From Clostridiales bacterium DTU074 (GTDB lineage: Bacteria > Bacillota > Clostridia > Caldicoprobacterales > Caldicoprobacteraceae): a DNA stretch of 48,286 nucleotides. The stretch is from assembly GCA_001513075.1 (NCBI GenBank), contig LFSE01000132.1, positions 1 to 48,286 of the forward strand, given 5' to 3'. Positions 7,293 through 15,025 of the stretch are shown here, in pieces; the first letter of the stretch is position 1; each line of letters begins with the position of its first letter. The notes beneath the pieces are model-generated. The model worked only from the letters and a program-made list of their open reading frames with translations, was not told the DNA's origin and searched no databases. Both the position numbers and the translations under genes were made by a program.

Positions 7293-7321
7293 TTGATAAC
7301 AGTCATTACCAGGTATATAAT
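7293..7321 (+). promoter_or_regulatory. Sigma-A-type promoter for the glutamate dehydrogenase gene
   Basis: TTGATA at 7293-7298 and TATAAT at 7316-7321 are separated by 17 bases. They lie 58 bases before the gdh start and downstream of the hairpin at 7155-7183. The leader is short and ends in a strong GAGGAGG ribosome binding site. Confidence 0.6.
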
Positions 7322-7378
7322 CATAGGAAAAAGCCGTTATGGAACAAGATATTTGAAAAATTTGAGGAGGAATTGAAT

Positions 7379-8665
7379 ATGAGCTCGAAATCTTACAATC
7401 CTTATGCAAATGCCCAAGCCCAATTTGATCGCGTAGCTGAAATGATAGGGCTGGAGCAGGGTGTCCGTGAATTGTTACGCCAGCCCATGAGAGAATATCA
7501 TTTTACAATACCGGTGCGGATGGATGACGGAACCACAAAGATCTTCAAGGGTTTCCGTATACAGCATAATGATGCCAGAGGACCTGCAAAAGGGGGAATT
7601 CGTTTTCATCCTCAGGAGACGGAAGATACAGTTCGAGCTTTGGCAATGTGGATGACATGGAAATGTGCTGTAGTGGATATTCCTTTAGGCGGAGCCAAGG
7701 GTGGGGTTGTCTGCGATCCGCACAATCTCACAGAGGGAGAACAAGAAAGACTGTGTCGAGGATACGTAAGACAGCTATCAAAGGTTATCGGACCTTGGAA
7801 CGATGTCCCTGCTCCGGATGTTATGACAAGCGGAAAGCATATGTTGTGGATGCTTGACGAGTTTGAGACTATTGTCGGAGGGCGATATCCCGGTATGATC
7901 ACGGGGAAACCTGTAGGAATGGGTGGCTCCCTGGGAAGAACGGAAGCTACCGGTTATGGGCTTATCTATGTACTGCGTGAAGCCCTGAAGGAATTGGGGA
8001 TAAAGCCGGAGGATACAACTGCCAGTATTCAAGGTTTTGGAAATGTGGCCCGTCATGCGGCTAAGATGTATCAAACCATCGGAGGGAAAATCCTGGCCGT
8101 ATCTTGCTGGGATAATGCTGACAAAAAGGCATATACTTTTGTTAATAAAGAAGGCATAGATGTTGAAGCCATGATTTCCATTACCGATACATACGGTAGC
8201 ATAGATAAAGAAAAAGCGATGGATATGGGTTGTGAGATACTGGACGGAGAGGCTTGGCTGGAGCAGGATGTGGACATTCTGATACCGGCGGCACTGGAGA
8301 ATCAGATCACTTTGGTTAATGTTGATAGAATAAGCAAGAGTGTTAAAATATTATTGGAAGGTGCCAATGGCCCGACTACTCCCGATGCCGATGATGTTAT
8401 AAAGCAAAGAGGCATATTCTTGATTCCGGATTTTCTGGCCAATGCAGGAGGGGTAACCTGCAGTTATTTCGAACAGGTTCAATGTAACATGAATTATTAT
8501 TGGGAAAAAGATGAAGTCCTCGATAAACTGAATACGAAGATGACGGCTGCCTACAAAGCGGTGAGCGAATTAGCCAAGAGGAGAAATCTATATATGCGGG
8601 ATGCGGCTTATGTAATTTCCGTTAGCCGCGTAGCACAGGCTGTGAAAATGCGTGGATGGGTATAA
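7379..8665 (+). CDS. gdhA: Glutamate dehydrogenase (Glu/Leu/Phe/Val dehydrogenase family)
   Basis: The enzyme interconverts 2-oxoglutarate plus ammonia and glutamate with NAD(P)H, linking nitrogen and carbon metabolism in the cytoplasm. The ATG at 7379 is chosen over a TTG two codons upstream because GAGGAGG ends eight bases before it. Family marks in order are PAKGGIRFHP (about 69-78), the substrate-binding Lys in MTWKCAVVDIP, GGAKGG (about 103-108), the catalytic Asp in PAPDVMT (about 144-150), and a Rossmann-fold glycine motif GFGNVA (about 219-224). The length of 428 aa is normal for the hexameric type. The sequence resembles the GDH-I group more than leucine dehydrogenases. A gap of 51 bases separates it from the next gene, so the two are probably co-transcribed. 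Confidence 0.93.
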   Translation: MSSKSYNPYANAQAQFDRVAEMIGLEQGVRELLRQPMREYHFTIPVRMDDGTTKIFKGFRIQHNDARGPAKGGIRFHPQETEDTVRALAMWMTWKCAVVDIPLGGAKGGVVCDPHNLTEGEQERLCRGYVRQLSKVIGPWNDVPAPDVMTSGKHMLWMLDEFETIVGGRYPGMITGKPVGMGGSLGRTEATGYGLIYVLREALKELGIKPEDTTASIQGFGNVARHAAKMYQTIGGKILAVSCWDNADKKAYTFVNKEGIDVEAMISITDTYGSIDKEKAMDMGCEILDGEAWLEQDVDILIPAALENQITLVNVDRISKSVKILLEGANGPTTPDADDVIKQRGIFLIPDFLANAGGVTCSYFEQVQCNMNYYWEKDEVLDKLNTKMTAAYKAVSELAKRRNLYMRDAAYVISVSRVAQAVKMRGWV

Positions 8666-8716: not shown

Positions 8717-11700
8717 ATGAATAATCATACCTTTCATAATGAATATTCATTGGACAACTTAAAAGAGAGGGCAAAGGAATTAAACTGCCTTTATCAGGTG
8801 GATGAGATTTTGGGCAACCAAAGGCTGTCACTTTCAGAACTTTTCAATCAGCTGATAAAAGCGGTTCCTTCTGGTTTTCAATATCCGGAGATCTGTCGTG
8901 TAAGAATAGTTTATCAGAATCGCAGCTACCAATTGCCTGATTTCAGGATAACACCGTACTTGGAAAGCTGTGATATCAGGATGGATGATAAATGGGTCGG
9001 AACCATCGAAGTCGTTTATATTGAAGAGATCCCGATAAGTGAAGAGGGATATTTTCTCGAGAAGGAACAAAAACTCATTCGAACAATTGCTGATCGTATC
9101 GGGCAGACATTGCTGCAACGTCACATCAAACAAGTTATGCAAGAATTGGACAGTTCCAGGCATGTCCTCGGCGAAAGGGAAGGTTCCGGTAATGAATGGC
9201 TTGTAATTGTTGACCTCCTAATAAAGACGGATCAGGATATGCTGCTTAATATCTGCAGAAAGATGATACATCATCTGTGCAAAAGTGGTATTAAGGAGGC
9301 AGAAGAGATACTGTGGAAGTTCAGTTCTGAGTCAAGGCTGCTCTTTGACTCAGAACTGAATTATCCTCTGGAGAAATTGCCGCAAGGTGATTTGCTCCAT
9401 ATATCCGAAAAAACGTTTGAGATTGCCTCAAAGCATTTGAACCCAAAAGAGATTACTATAAGATTAAAGAGATGGATTCAGGAAGAGAAAACTAACTCCT
9501 TGATAAAGAGTATTGATCGGGTGGATGTATCGGTGGGTGAAATAGTTGATGCCATCACCCGTTACAGGAATATCAGTGCTTACGGCAAATCCTATTATTC
9601 CCCCGCCGAGCATTGGCTTACCGTAGCTCTCATTAGGCGCTTTTTATCGGAGAAATTAGAATTTATCTCCATTGCCAGGCCGCATATAGAAGTCAACGAT
9701 TTTTATGATATTGTCACACACCTGATCTTTCCTGAAGGCAGTCACGGTAAGATTGGTGGAAAGAGTACGGGCCTTTTTTTGGCCCAGCAGATTCTTAAAA
9801 AGGCGGAAGCCGATTCTCCTGGCCTATATTCTGTTAAGGTGCCGAAGACGTGGTATATAGCTACCGATGAAATAAAAGAATTTCTGCACTATAACAATCT
9901 GGAAGAATTAAACATACAAAAATATAAAGAGCTATATGAGATACGGCTTGATTATCCCAATATTATTCAGACTATGAAGAATTGCAGATTTCCGGAGGGA
10001 ATAATAAAAAGCCTATCCATGGCTTTGGATGATTTTGGTGATTCTCCTCTAATCGTCCGAAGTTCAAGTCTGCTTGAGGATCAAGAAGGGGCGGCATTTT
10101 CTGGAAAATATAAGAGTTTGTTTTTGGCCAATCAAGGTACCAAAAAGGAACGATTGGAAGCGTTAATGAACGCAATTGTTGAAGTCTATGCTTCAATGTA
10201 TTCGCCGGATTCCATTCAATACCGGGCTGAACGGGGCATGCTTGATTTTCCTGAAGAAATGGGAATTATGATTCAGGAGGTAGTGGGGACAAAAATCGGA
10301 CACTATTATTTTCCCCTCTTTTCGGGGGTTGCATTTAGCAACAATGAGTTCCGTTGGTCTCCCAGAATCAAACGGGAAGATGGCCTGATCCGTCTTGTGA
10401 TGGGACTGGGGACGCGAGCTGTTGATCGGGTAAGCGACGATTTTCCGGTATTGGTCTCCCCCGGGCAGCCTAAACTGAAGGTGAATATTGCACCCGACGA
10501 AGTGAGATATTATTCGCAGAAAAAAATAGATCTGATCAATTTGAAGAAAAATGTATTTGAAACTGTTGAAATAGAAAGGCTTTTAAGAGAATTTGGGGAA
10601 GAAATCCCTAAAGTTTATCAGATTGTATCGGTATACAAACATGATTATATCAGCAAACCTCTGGCCTTTGATATAGATTTTCAGAAGGATGAATTGGTAG
10701 TAACATTTGACGGGCTTATTTCTGATACACCCTTCATTAAAAAGGTCGATCTCATTTTGAAGAAGCTACAGGAAGAATTGGGCACTCCGGTAGATATAGA
10801 ATTTGCTTCGGATGGTGAGAATTTTTATCTTTTACAATGCAGGCCGCAGAGTTTTGGTGCCGCTCATTCACCTGCACCTATACCAAAGGATGTTGATCCG
10901 AAGGATATTATCTTCTCGGCCAACAAATATATCTCCAATGGAATTATTTCGGATATCTCCTGTATAGTATATGTGGTTCCTGAGGCATACAATCAAATTC
11001 ATGAATTCGATGATTTTATTAACATAGGAAGGGTTGTGGGGCAGTTGAATTCCTTGCTCCCCAAACGTCGTTTTATCCTCATAGGACCGGGACGTTGGGG
11101 CAGCAGGGGAGATGTCAAGCTGGGAGTACAGGTGCGCTATTCGGATATCAATAATACGGCTGCTCTTATAGAGGTGGCCCATAGAAAAGCCGGATATTTA
11201 CCCGAGCTATCCTTCGGGACTCATTTTTTCCAGGATTTAGTTGAGGCGGATATTCGTTATCTTCCCCTGTACCCCGATGACGCTAATATAGTTTTCAATG
11301 AAAAGTTTTTGACGGGATCCGACAATATGCTGCCGCAGTTGTTGCCTCAATGGGCCTATCTGAAAGATGTTGTAAAGGTTATTGATGTGCTTAAGGCTTC
11401 CCATGGTAAGGTATTAAAGATTGTTATGAATGCGGAGCTGGAGGAAGCTCTTGGTTATTTGGAGTCCCCCTCAGAACGGAGGGCGGACTCATATGAGAAA
11501 ACTGTTAAACCCGTAAGAATAGAAAAAGATACGGAGTTTAACTATGACGACAGATATTGGCGATGGCGTTATCATATGGCAGAGCGTATAGCTGCAAACC
11601 TTGATCCGAAACGCTTTGGAGTTAAAGGGATGTATTTATTTGGAAGTACAAATAACGGTACTGCAGGCCCCGGCAGCGATATTGATTTGCTTGTCCATTT

Positions 11701-11929
11701 TGATGGTTCTGAAAGACAGCGGGAAGAACTTTTGCAGTGGCTGCAGGGATGGAGCCTGTGTCTTGCAGAGATGAATTATCAAAGAACCGGGTATTTGTCT
11801 GATGGCCTGCTGGATGTGCACATCATAACGGATGAGGATATTGCAAAAAAGACGGCTTTTGCCGTCAAAATCGATGCAATTACAGACCCGGCCCAGCCTT
11901 TGAAGTTAAAGAATAATGCGGAACGATGA
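8717..11929 (+). CDS. GAF-like / PEP-synthase ATP-grasp / nucleotidyltransferase fusion protein
   Basis: Residues 10-145 begin LKERAKELNCLYQVDEIL and resemble the GAF-like sensor region found in signalling proteins. About residues 340-710 match the PEP synthase/PPDK N-terminal ATP-grasp domain: GGKSTGL (near 346), LIVRSSSLLED (near 443), AAFSGKY, MGIMIQEVVG and LQCRPQ (near 706). A following segment contains IGPGRWGSRGD (near 788). The C-terminus has an MNT/pol-beta-type nucleotidyltransferase motif, LFGST then GSDIDLLV (about 973-992). The phosphohistidine swivel domain (TxxGGxTxHAA type) and the PEP-binding TIM barrel are absent, so it cannot be an ordinary PEP synthase. A signalling or modifying role tied to the adjacent glutamate dehydrogenase is possible but unproven. 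Confidence 0.75.
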   Translation: MNNHTFHNEYSLDNLKERAKELNCLYQVDEILGNQRLSLSELFNQLIKAVPSGFQYPEICRVRIVYQNRSYQLPDFRITPYLESCDIRMDDKWVGTIEVVYIEEIPISEEGYFLEKEQKLIRTIADRIGQTLLQRHIKQVMQELDSSRHVLGEREGSGNEWLVIVDLLIKTDQDMLLNICRKMIHHLCKSGIKEAEEILWKFSSESRLLFDSELNYPLEKLPQGDLLHISEKTFEIASKHLNPKEITIRLKRWIQEEKTNSLIKSIDRVDVSVGEIVDAITRYRNISAYGKSYYSPAEHWLTVALIRRFLSEKLEFISIARPHIEVNDFYDIVTHLIFPEGSHGKIGGKSTGLFLAQQILKKAEADSPGLYSVKVPKTWYIATDEIKEFLHYNNLEELNIQKYKELYEIRLDYPNIIQTMKNCRFPEGIIKSLSMALDDFGDSPLIVRSSSLLEDQEGAAFSGKYKSLFLANQGTKKERLEALMNAIVEVYASMYSPDSIQYRAERGMLDFPEEMGIMIQEVVGTKIGHYYFPLFSGVAFSNNEFRWSPRIKREDGLIRLVMGLGTRAVDRVSDDFPVLVSPGQPKLKVNIAPDEVRYYSQKKIDLINLKKNVFETVEIERLLREFGEEIPKVYQIVSVYKHDYISKPLAFDIDFQKDELVVTFDGLISDTPFIKKVDLILKKLQEELGTPVDIEFASDGENFYLLQCRPQSFGAAHSPAPIPKDVDPKDIIFSANKYISNGIISDISCIVYVVPEAYNQIHEFDDFINIGRVVGQLNSLLPKRRFILIGPGRWGSRGDVKLGVQVRYSDINNTAALIEVAHRKAGYLPELSFGTHFFQDLVEADIRYLPLYPDDANIVFNEKFLTGSDNMLPQLLPQWAYLKDVVKVIDVLKASHGKVLKIVMNAELEEALGYLESPSERRADSYEKTVKPVRIEKDTEFNYDDRYWRWRYHMAERIAANLDPKRFGVKGMYLFGSTNNGTAGPGSDIDLLVHFDGSERQREELLQWLQGWSLCLAEMNYQRTGYLSDGLLDVHIITDEDIAKKTAFAVKIDAITDPAQPLKLKNNAER

Positions 11930-11962: not shown

Positions 11963-11992
11963 TTGACAAATGGATTATTTTGTCTATATAAT
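11963..11992 (+). promoter_or_regulatory. Sigma-A-type promoter of the riboswitch-controlled ATPase gene
   Basis: A consensus -35 (TTGACA, 11963-11968) and -10 (TATAAT, 11987-11992) are 18 bases apart. The predicted transcript start is about 30 bases before the first stem of the Mn2+ riboswitch, so the full aptamer would be transcribed. Confidence 0.8.
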
Positions 11993-12367: not shown

Positions 12368-15025
12368 ATGGAAAACATAAAATGGCACACGGTGTCAATA
12401 AGAGAGGTCGAGGAAAAGCTGTCAACATCGTTTGAAAAAGGGCTTTCAAGGGACGAAGCGCGCCGGCGTCTTGAAAAATACGGTCCCAATGAACTGGAAC
12501 AAAAGGATCACAAATCAGTTTTTTCCATGCTTCTGGATCAGTTTAAAGATTTCATGGTAATCGTTTTGATAGTAGCTGCCATTATTTCCGGCATTCTCGG
12601 TGAATTAACCGATTCTATCATAATAATGCTCATTGTTATTCTTAACGCCATTTTGGGTGTTGTACAGGAGTACAAGGCCGAACAGTCGCTTGAAGCTTTA
12701 AAGAGAATGGCTTCACCTGCTGCAAAGGTTATAAGGGACGGAAATCCCGATGTCATTCCTGCATCCCAATTGGTAGTCGGAGACATTGTAATTCTGGAAA
12801 CCGGAGAGCTTGTTCCTGCGGACATCCGCCTTGGTCAAACGTCCAATCTGAAGATTGAGGAAGCCGCATTGACGGGTGAATCGGTGCCGGTTGAAAAGCA
12901 CAGCGAAACATTGGAAGAGGAAGATATATCCGTTGGTGACAGGTTGAATATGGCTTATTCGGGCTGTATAGTAACATACGGACGGGGTAGGGGTATTGTA
13001 GTAGCCACTGGTATGGACACCGAGATGGGCAGGATCGCTGAGATGATACAAACCCATGAAGATACGACCACCCCTTTGCAAAAGCGCCTGGAAGTTTTGG
13101 GGAAAAGCCTGGCAACGGCAGCTTTAGCTATATGTGCGGTGATTTTCATTGTAGGCATACTATATGGCAAGAATATATTCAATATGTTTTTGACTTCGGT
13201 TAGTCTGGCCGTAGCCGCAATACCCGAAGGGCTTCCTGCTATAGTGACAATAGTGCTGGCCATAGGGGTACAGCGTATGGGCAGGCGCAATGCCATCATA
13301 CGAAAGCTGCCATCGGTGGAGACCTTGGGCAGCGCTACCGTGATATGTTCCGATAAAACCGGTACGTTGACGCAAAACCGTATGACAGTGGAGCAGATTT
13401 ATTACAACGATGGGTTTATCAATACACGCCAGCTCACCGATAAAAATGAAATTGATCAGCACCTGCAGCTTTTAATATCCGTCGGTATTATGTGCAATGA
13501 TACTCAAATCGTGGTCGAAGGGCAAGACAAAAAAACCGTTGGTGATCCCACCGAAACGGCATTGGTGGAACTGGGTTTAAAGGTAGGACTGGATAAGGAT
13601 ATTATGGATGCGGACATACCCAGGGTCGATGAGCTGCCCTTTGATTCTGAAAGAAAGCTTATGAGCACCGTGCATAGAATGGATAACGGATACCGGGTGT
13701 TCACAAAGGGTGCCCCCGATGAGTTGGTGGCCCGGTGTAATAGGATTCTTTTGAATGGAGAAGTTGTGGAACTGTCTCAGCAGCAGATGCAGGAGATCTG
13801 GAACGCAAATGATAATATGGCGTCCAAGGCATTAAGGGTGCTGGGGCTGGCATACAAAGATCTGGATACAATTGAATTTTTGAACAAGGAGGAGGAACTG
13901 GAAAAGGATCTTATATTTGTGGGTCTGGTCGGCATGATAGATCCGCCAAGGCCGGAAGCAAAAGAAGCCATAAAGATATGTAAACGGGCTGGTATAAAGC
14001 CGGTTATGATCACCGGCGATCATAAAATTACCGCAGTGGCAATTGCAAGGGAACTGGGGATCCTAAAACACGAAGATGAGGCTATAACGGGAGCAGAATT
14101 AGAACGCCTTTCGGATGAGGAATTTAGGGAAAGGGTGAAGAATTATTCGGTATATGCTCGGGTATCTCCAGAGCACAAGGTTAAGATCGTCAAAGCATGG
14201 CAGAGCTGGGGAGAGATAGCTGCCATGACGGGCGATGGAGTAAATGATGCTCCTGCTCTTAAGCGGGCTGATATTGGCGCTGCTATGGGTAATATAGGTA
14301 CCGATGTGGCTAAAGAAGCTTCCGATATGGTGCTTACCGATGATAATTTCGCCACCATTGTAGCGGCAGTCGAGGAAGGAAGGATAATATATTCAAACAT
14401 ATTGAAAGCAATCCAATTCTTACTGTCATGCAATATAGGCGAGATTCTGGTGCTGTTTATTGCAACCATGTTAAACTGGCGTGAACCGTTGCTGCCAATA
14501 CATATACTTTGGGTTAACCTTGTAACCGACAGCCTGCCGGCCCTGGCCCTTGGTGTGGAACCTGCCGAGCCCGATATCATGGATAAAAAGCCCAGGGATC
14601 CTCAGGCCAGGATATTCGACAAAGGCATGATCGCAAGAATTATCTATCAGGGAATTATGATTGGAGCATTGACCCTTACGGCTTATGCAATAGGTTTCAG
14701 GGATAGTTATGTAGTAGGGCAGACCATGGCTTTTTGTGTGCTGGCTTTAAGCCAATTGAGCCATGTGTTCAATGTACGCTCCAACAAGCATTCAATCTTT
14801 AGGATAGGCTTTACATCCAATCGTTATGTTCTGGGGGCAGTTGCAATTTCAGGATTGCTTCAGATTGCGGTTATAAGTATCCCATTTTTGGCAAATGTCT
14901 TTAAAGTGGTACCCCTTGAAACTAAACACTGGCTCTGGATATTGTTATTAACGTTAGCACCCGTCGTTGTTGTTGAAATTGTAAAATTGTTGGGTTATAA
15001 TACGACAAAAGATGAAGCATCATAA
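12368..15025 (+). CDS. Cation-transporting P-type ATPase (Ca2+/Mn2+, P2A type)
   Basis: This membrane pump uses ATP to export Ca2+ or Mn2+. Visible motifs are the N-terminal cation ATPase domain, TGES in the actuator domain (167-170), the M4 site PEGLPA (about 286-291), the phosphorylated Asp in DKTGT (about 329), and GDGVNDAP (about 622-629). M5 carries NIGEILVLF and M6 carries NLVTDSLPAL. These supply the Asn/Glu and Asn/Asp ligands of both SERCA-type ion sites, as in Bacillus YloB-like pumps. The length of 885 aa is normal. It is preceded by a yybP-ykoY riboswitch, which makes Mn2+ detoxification a likely role. Ca2+ transport is equally compatible with the residues. Confidence 0.92.
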   Translation: MENIKWHTVSIREVEEKLSTSFEKGLSRDEARRRLEKYGPNELEQKDHKSVFSMLLDQFKDFMVIVLIVAAIISGILGELTDSIIIMLIVILNAILGVVQEYKAEQSLEALKRMASPAAKVIRDGNPDVIPASQLVVGDIVILETGELVPADIRLGQTSNLKIEEAALTGESVPVEKHSETLEEEDISVGDRLNMAYSGCIVTYGRGRGIVVATGMDTEMGRIAEMIQTHEDTTTPLQKRLEVLGKSLATAALAICAVIFIVGILYGKNIFNMFLTSVSLAVAAIPEGLPAIVTIVLAIGVQRMGRRNAIIRKLPSVETLGSATVICSDKTGTLTQNRMTVEQIYYNDGFINTRQLTDKNEIDQHLQLLISVGIMCNDTQIVVEGQDKKTVGDPTETALVELGLKVGLDKDIMDADIPRVDELPFDSERKLMSTVHRMDNGYRVFTKGAPDELVARCNRILLNGEVVELSQQQMQEIWNANDNMASKALRVLGLAYKDLDTIEFLNKEEELEKDLIFVGLVGMIDPPRPEAKEAIKICKRAGIKPVMITGDHKITAVAIARELGILKHEDEAITGAELERLSDEEFRERVKNYSVYARVSPEHKVKIVKAWQSWGEIAAMTGDGVNDAPALKRADIGAAMGNIGTDVAKEASDMVLTDDNFATIVAAVEEGRIIYSNILKAIQFLLSCNIGEILVLFIATMLNWREPLLPIHILWVNLVTDSLPALALGVEPAEPDIMDKKPRDPQARIFDKGMIARIIYQGIMIGALTLTAYAIGFRDSYVVGQTMAFCVLALSQLSHVFNVRSNKHSIFRIGFTSNRYVLGAVAISGLLQIAVISIPFLANVFKVVPLETKHWLWILLLTLAPVVVVEIVKLLGYNTTKDEAS

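Follow-up and report, generated by a model that had tools for sequence, protein, structure and literature searches.

A 1,070-amino-acid (aa) protein encoded directly downstream of a glutamate dehydrogenase (GDH) gene in Clostridiales bacterium DTU074 is probably an undescribed signaling enzyme that controls glutamate and ammonia handling. The architecture of the protein, its intact catalytic residues, its conservation, and a phylogenetically repeated link to enzymes of glutamate and ammonia metabolism support this signaling reading, and regulator is the best-supported description of its function. We propose, with a rough probability of 45%, that it is a signaling phosphotransfer enzyme serving GDH by means of gating through a GAF domain, phosphorylation of a histidine, and output through a nucleotidyltransferase. 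The gene lies in the window, by which we mean the whole 48,286-nucleotide stretch of DNA that was analyzed (Table 1).

Table 1. Coordinates of features in the window and, where a locus is named, in loci of relatives
Feature	Coordinates	Strand	Basis or remark
ORF, 1,070 aa, ATG start	8717..11929	+	GAF, helical linker, ATP-grasp, swivel-like domain, nucleotidyltransferase
GDH gene	7373..8665	+	ELFV_dehydrog_N and ELFV_dehydrog
Promoter-like site TTGATA-17-TATAAT, 5' of GDH	7293..7321	+	Consensus match only
GAF domain, residues 10-145	8744..9151	+	Structure match, Z 12.6 to 3cit; no Pfam match
Helical linker, residues 157-340	9185..9736	+	Predicted model, lower confidence
PPDK_N ATP-grasp domain, residues 345-725	9749..10891	+	Pfam, structure, conserved residues
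GPGRWGS domain, residues 716-920, predicted swivelling-type fold	10862..11476	+	pLDDT 93.6; VIA-align Z 5.5 or less
H836 codon in SFGTHFF, proposed phospho-acceptor	11222..11224	+	Residue conservation
Pol-beta-fold nucleotidyltransferase domain, residues 946-1044 (G976, S977, D988, D990, D1033)	11552..11848	+	Pfam, model, conservation
ATP-grasp plus GPGRWGS paralog (~585 aa) between GDH and homolog	L037:3142-4959; L044:3211-4959; L065:2566-4383; others		Without sensor or nucleotidyltransferase
Paralogs (~1,000 aa) with two receiver-like N-terminal domains	L070:9772-12744; L031:10019-13147; L071:398-3412	-
Calcineurin-like metallophosphoesterase gene	L013:8262-9125; L046:8163-9035 (-); 28 other loci
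PrkA-type serine kinase gene, upstream of ATP-grasp paralog and NADP-GDH	L120:6713-8575; L121:6950-8800 (-)		Pfam for L120; L121 gene similar-looking

The original prediction described a fusion of a GAF-like sensor, an ATP-grasp domain of the PEP synthase type, and a nucleotidyltransferase. The motifs on which it drew (RSSSLLED, LQCRPQ, GPGRWGSRGD, and GST..GSDIDLLV) were all confirmed in the sequence. Pfam searches placed PPDK_N (PF01326) at residues 345 to 725 (E = 3.5e-60) and NTP_transf_2 (PF01909) at residues 966 to 1004 (E = 1.5e-10), which bears out the ATP-grasp domain and the C-terminal nucleotidyltransferase; neither GAF nor PEP-utilizers was found in the same search. The GAF-like sensor was recovered by structure comparison, though it has no Pfam match. 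In the predicted structure of the whole protein (pLDDT 83.4), residues 10 to 145 have a GAF fold whose best solved match is 3cit (Z 12.6, rmsd 2.6, 126 residues aligned), and the GAF domains of NifA and PtsP (3trc, Z 10.8) match the same residues. As had been claimed at the sequence level, the protein lacks a TxHAA motif, and the PEP/pyruvate-binding barrel (PEP-utilizers_C) is absent by Pfam, with the nucleotidyltransferase occupying the C terminus instead. The protein scored 58.6 bits against the NCBIfam model for PEP synthase (TIGR01418; cutoff, 739.75), and an identity as PEP synthase was rejected because the barrel is absent and the equivalog cutoffs were missed widely. A type VII toxin-antitoxin (MntA) assignment was likewise rejected, since the score of 29 bits is below the cutoff of 60 and the conserved neighbor is GDH, with no HEPN gene; PADLOC returned only weak matches to generic nucleotidyltransferase models.

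Among 84,980 species genomes scanned, about 330 relatives turned up, and the best 80 (about 50 to 83% identity), nearly all of them full length, were kept. The GAF/ATP-grasp/nucleotidyltransferase architecture is not a product of chance, as it is kept in 83 other full-length homologs of about 50 to 83% identity. The relatives come from Syntrophomonadaceae and other Bacillota, Aminicenantes/Acidobacteria, Spirochaetes, Zixibacteria, Ignavibacteria, Krumholzibacteriota, Kiritimatiellae/Verrucomicrobia, and more taxa, mostly as metagenome bins in which single labels may err; a cultured relative is Halonatronum saccharophilum (L018). A plasmid collection yielded only three relatives, of 27 to 29% identity and without the full architecture. 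Degeneration of the ATP-binding residues in all homologs had been named as a finding that would speak against the original prediction; in the 84 full-length sequences, ATP-grasp residues K349, R448, E454, D455, D693, E695, Q707, and R709 are invariant. The protein has the GS motif, the DxD, and the third Asp of Pol-beta nucleotidyltransferases, with G976, S977, D988, and D1033 kept in 84/84 sequences and D990 in 83/84. Between these two domains, S832-x-G834-T835-H836-F837-F838 is also invariant in the 84 sequences, and a His at H836 is found in 141 of the 146 rows of a wider family alignment. Given this near-complete invariance, all three centers (ATP-grasp, the GTH motif, and the nucleotidyltransferase) look to be under selection.

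The claim that the protein lacks a phosphohistidine domain stands insofar as the canonical TxHAA motif is missing, but it is probably wrong at the level of the fold. The GPGRWGS domain (residues 716 to 920), modeled alone with 74 diverse relatives, gave a confident prediction (pLDDT 93.6, pTM 0.91) in which the invariant Gly-Thr-His (H836) sits at the N terminus of a helix. The best VIA-align matches of this model were mostly families with swivelling folds, at Z scores of 5.5 or less that may reflect merely a common arrangement. They included PPDK residues 378 to 514, rifampin phosphotransferase (RPH) residues 757 to 867, and the pyruvate kinase C-terminal domain, as well as RraA, LD-carboxypeptidase, PA domains, chaperonin apical domains, LeuD, fumarase beta, and the carbamoyl-phosphate synthetase small subunit, families that share the "swivelling beta/beta/alpha" fold of SCOP (c.8). 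The best structural match of the whole model was RPH (5hv3, Z 26.2), in which the ATP-grasp domain and the region on to the swivel domain were aligned over 397 residues, versus 288 for the isolated RPH ATP domain (5hv6); alignments to PPS and PPDK also extend into their swivel domains, to model residues 915 to 919. By eye, the elements follow the same order, with the SNG turn corresponding to SPG, FILI to VILV, LIEV to GILT, and GTH at the helix start to GGxTSH, followed by a strand. Comparisons by other routes found no relationship: profile-profile alignment of the domain with the swivel domains of PPDK, PPS, and PtsI gave a score at chance level (11.5; mean with shuffled columns, 11.4), Foldseek with the domain model gave nothing at an E value below 0.001, and Pfam gave no match to the swivelling His domain (PF00391) at an E value of 10 in the 74 domain sequences. 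Going by the models, a swivel-type fold is likely but not proven, and we would put even odds on H836 as the phospho-acceptor.

The same observations bear on an alternative in which the protein senses ATP/ADP and serves GDH as an allosteric regulator or scaffold: nucleotide binding would alter the shape of the ATP-grasp domain, no phosphohistidine would form, and the nucleotidyltransferase would be the only catalytic part. In its favor, the canonical swivel motif is missing, the GPGRWGS domain does not resemble PF00391 in sequence, R793, E819, and H836 could serve structure or ligand binding, and a link to GDH is compatible with either reading. We nevertheless consider this alternative unlikely, because the invariance of K349, R448, D693, E695, Q707, and R709 would be unusual for a mere binding domain and because a swivel-like fold follows the ATP-grasp domain.

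The start of the ORF lies 51 nt past the GDH stop, the spacing given in the original prediction. GDH and the 1,070-aa ORF are probably cotranscribed, as a promoter-like site precedes GDH and a consensus match search of the intergenic gap turned up nothing resembling a terminator. Conservation of this arrangement, which the original prediction had proposed to survey, was assessed in the 72 homolog loci whose upstream sequence reached 900 nt or more; loci were picked by protein similarity with the neighborhood ignored. GDH is adjacent or one gene off in 65 of these loci. In 64 loci, the homolog was found to be accompanied by a GDH with identity above 50%, as a direct neighbor in 40 (gaps of -13 to 316 nt), separated by the gene for a ~585-aa ATP-grasp paralog in 22, and divergent in 2; the 65th locus (L045) was missed because its ORF start had been over-called. 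At another locus (L057), GDH lies 3.3 kb from the homolog. Many GDHs of the window type occur without a homolog of the 1,070-aa protein. No GDH residue marking pairing or a modification site emerged when 62 paired GDHs and the window's own were compared with 17 unpaired GDHs, which have no PPDK_N relative nearby, and covalent modification of GDH by the 1,070-aa protein is therefore speculative.

In two genomes (G318 and G327), the homolog (48%) adjoins a GDH just 32 to 34% identical to that of the window, and a second GDH, 68 to 69% identical to the window's, is encoded elsewhere. At L130 and L132, the partner has been swapped for an NADP-GDH although a window-type GDH persists elsewhere in both genomes. 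Mapping NADP-GDH partners onto a 50-sequence tree takes at least four label changes across the starred branches. Paralogs of 860 to 900 aa, which have a different N-terminal region of ~300 residues, adjoin NADP-specific GDH at four loci (L118 to L121) and the glutamate synthase genes GltB-GltD at two (L116 and L117). A receiver-type paralog adjoins NADP-GDH (L127) and a 567-aa paralog adjoins alanine dehydrogenase (L125), while other paralogs are found near an aldehyde dehydrogenase, near a class V aminotransferase, or with no evident partner nearby, so that the association is strong but not universal. Because NADP-type GDHs are partners despite window-type GDHs elsewhere, and because paralogs lie beside other glutamate and ammonia enzymes, the association with GDH is not plain operon inheritance. 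The N-terminal modules of the paralogs are sensor-like and include partly degenerate pseudo-receiver domains, which favors a signaling role.

These partners also invite a metabolic alternative, in which the protein would be a kinase or ligase that uses ATP to act on a metabolite made or used by GDH (2-oxoglutarate, glutamate, or ammonia) and its nucleotidyltransferase would modify a small molecule. The substrate that PEP synthase and PPDK phosphorylate is a 2-oxo acid, GDH and alanine dehydrogenase produce 2-oxo acids, and rifampin phosphotransferase demonstrates that the superfamily accepts other small-molecule substrates. Against this, the PEP barrel or any other evident substrate domain is absent, the N-terminal modules (GAF or partly degenerate receiver-like domains) are sensor-like, and the partners differ, spanning GDH types, glutamate synthase, alanine dehydrogenase, and aldehyde dehydrogenase; such a role is improbable in our view. 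A passively inherited operon with an unrelated job, such as RNA or toxin-antitoxin-like nucleotidyl transfer, would fit the weak scores against MntA and PDC-S09 nucleotidyltransferase models and the ability of operons to travel together, but it is very improbable given the direct, divergent, and paralog-spaced GDH arrangements, the swaps to another GDH type, and the glutamate and ammonia enzymes found in several clades of the tree.

In the signaling mechanism that we propose, a small molecule on the N-terminal GAF domain would gate the PEP synthase/PPDK-type ATP-grasp domain, which would move a phosphoryl group of ATP onto a histidine of the diverged swivelling domain, most likely H836. Once phosphorylated, the protein would control the neighboring GDH, whether by binding it or by modifying it, and the nucleotidyltransferase might add or reverse a second modification, presumably of the NMP type, on that target or on a partner. 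The second ATP-grasp paralog and a metallophosphoesterase, encoded alongside in many genomes, could complete the circuit. The metallophosphoesterase gene accompanies the cluster at 30 loci, where it is mostly abutting and convergent (27 of the 75 loci whose downstream sequence exceeds 1.2 kb), and its product is a possible antagonist enzyme. None is encoded in the window, and a search of the window's own genome returned no homolog, an empty answer that weighs little. Counted against the signaling reading are the absent sequence similarity to swivel domains, the low structural scores, the lack of a pairing-specific GDH residue, the unpaired GDHs, an Arg at the H836 position in a few paralogs, and the paralogs located away from amino acid dehydrogenases. 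The part of the original prediction that suggested a signaling or protein-modifying enzyme in nitrogen or carbon metabolism agrees with a sensor, ATP-grasp domain, and nucleotidyltransferase that are tied to GDH with their catalytic residues intact; its premise of a missing phosphohistidine domain probably does not fit. More tentatively, the family may represent a new class of nitrogen control in which sensor-gated phosphotransfer from ATP to His, through PPDK_N and a novel swivelling domain that sequence comparison does not recognize, and a nucleotidyltransferase in the same chain reversibly modify GDH, with paralogs that carry pseudo-receiver or other N-terminal modules directed at NADP-GDH, glutamate synthase, and alanine dehydrogenase in many phyla.

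The best reading by analogy would be a GAF-gated, self-phosphorylating GDH controller comparable to VadK (Rv1127c) of Mycobacterium tuberculosis, a barrel-less PPDK derivative that autophosphorylates on swivel His422 and is a proposed regulator of the enzymes that it binds (PMC13400623). Both have a PPDK-derived ATP-grasp domain without a PEP barrel and a proposed role in regulating metabolic enzymes, and phosphohistidine has been demonstrated for VadK, but VadK consists of the ATP-binding and phosphotransfer-His domains only and targets methylcitrate cycle enzymes (PMC13400623), whereas the window protein adds GAF and nucleotidyltransferase domains and has no recognizable TxHAA motif. PEP synthase (PpsA) and PPDK share the PPDK_N ATP-grasp domain, whose catalytic residues are invariant in the window protein's family, but the window protein lacks their canonical swivel motif and PEP/pyruvate barrel and scores far under the NCBIfam cutoffs. 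RPH differs in its rifampin-binding domain, its C-terminal His domain, and its metabolic setting. EI-Ntr (PtsP) of the nitrogen PTS is a GAF-gated phosphohistidine protein linked to nitrogen status, which makes it a comparison in manner of working as well as in GAF fold; however, it uses PEP through a barrel and has neither an ATP-grasp domain nor a nucleotidyltransferase. GlnD and GlnE (PII uridylyltransferase and GS adenylyltransferase) resemble the window protein only in working as Pol-beta nucleotidyltransferases in nitrogen assimilation; their other domains differ, and the relation is one of a shared nucleotidyltransferase fold.

Our literature search, which could not reach most subscription journals, found no description of the 1,070-aa architecture, the GPGRWGS domain, or a gdh-PPDK_N operon. 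The domains are individually known; what appears to lack a published description is their combination in one chain, the GPGRWGS domain, and the association with GDH. This PPDK-derived phosphotransfer-type protein could well come to define a regulatory family of its own. Little is known of how GDH is controlled after translation in anaerobes, and a conserved GDH partner in many phyla whose phosphotransfer and nucleotidyl-transfer centers are intact would, if the proposal is true, supply a missing circuit of nitrogen and energy control and show a metabolic dikinase converted into a signaling kinase. The annotation "PEP/pyruvate-binding domain-containing protein," which a distant relative carries, would then need correcting as well.

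The ~585-aa paralog usually overlaps the homolog by a few nucleotides, and Zixibacteria, Acidobacteria, and Ignavibacteria thereby have a system of two proteins. In the ~1,000-aa paralogs, the phospho-acceptor Asp is missing from the first receiver-like domain, and the second retains the D in LLGIISD; a paralog of this two-receiver-like type lies directly 3' of GDH at two loci (L064 and L071). An Arg replaces the His at the H836 position in a few standalone paralogs of Bacillota (L099, L102, L103, and L105). In the window itself, a perfect consensus promoter (TTGACA-18-TATAAT) is found at positions 11963 to 11992, between the 1,070-aa ORF and a P-type cation ATPase gene at position 12368.
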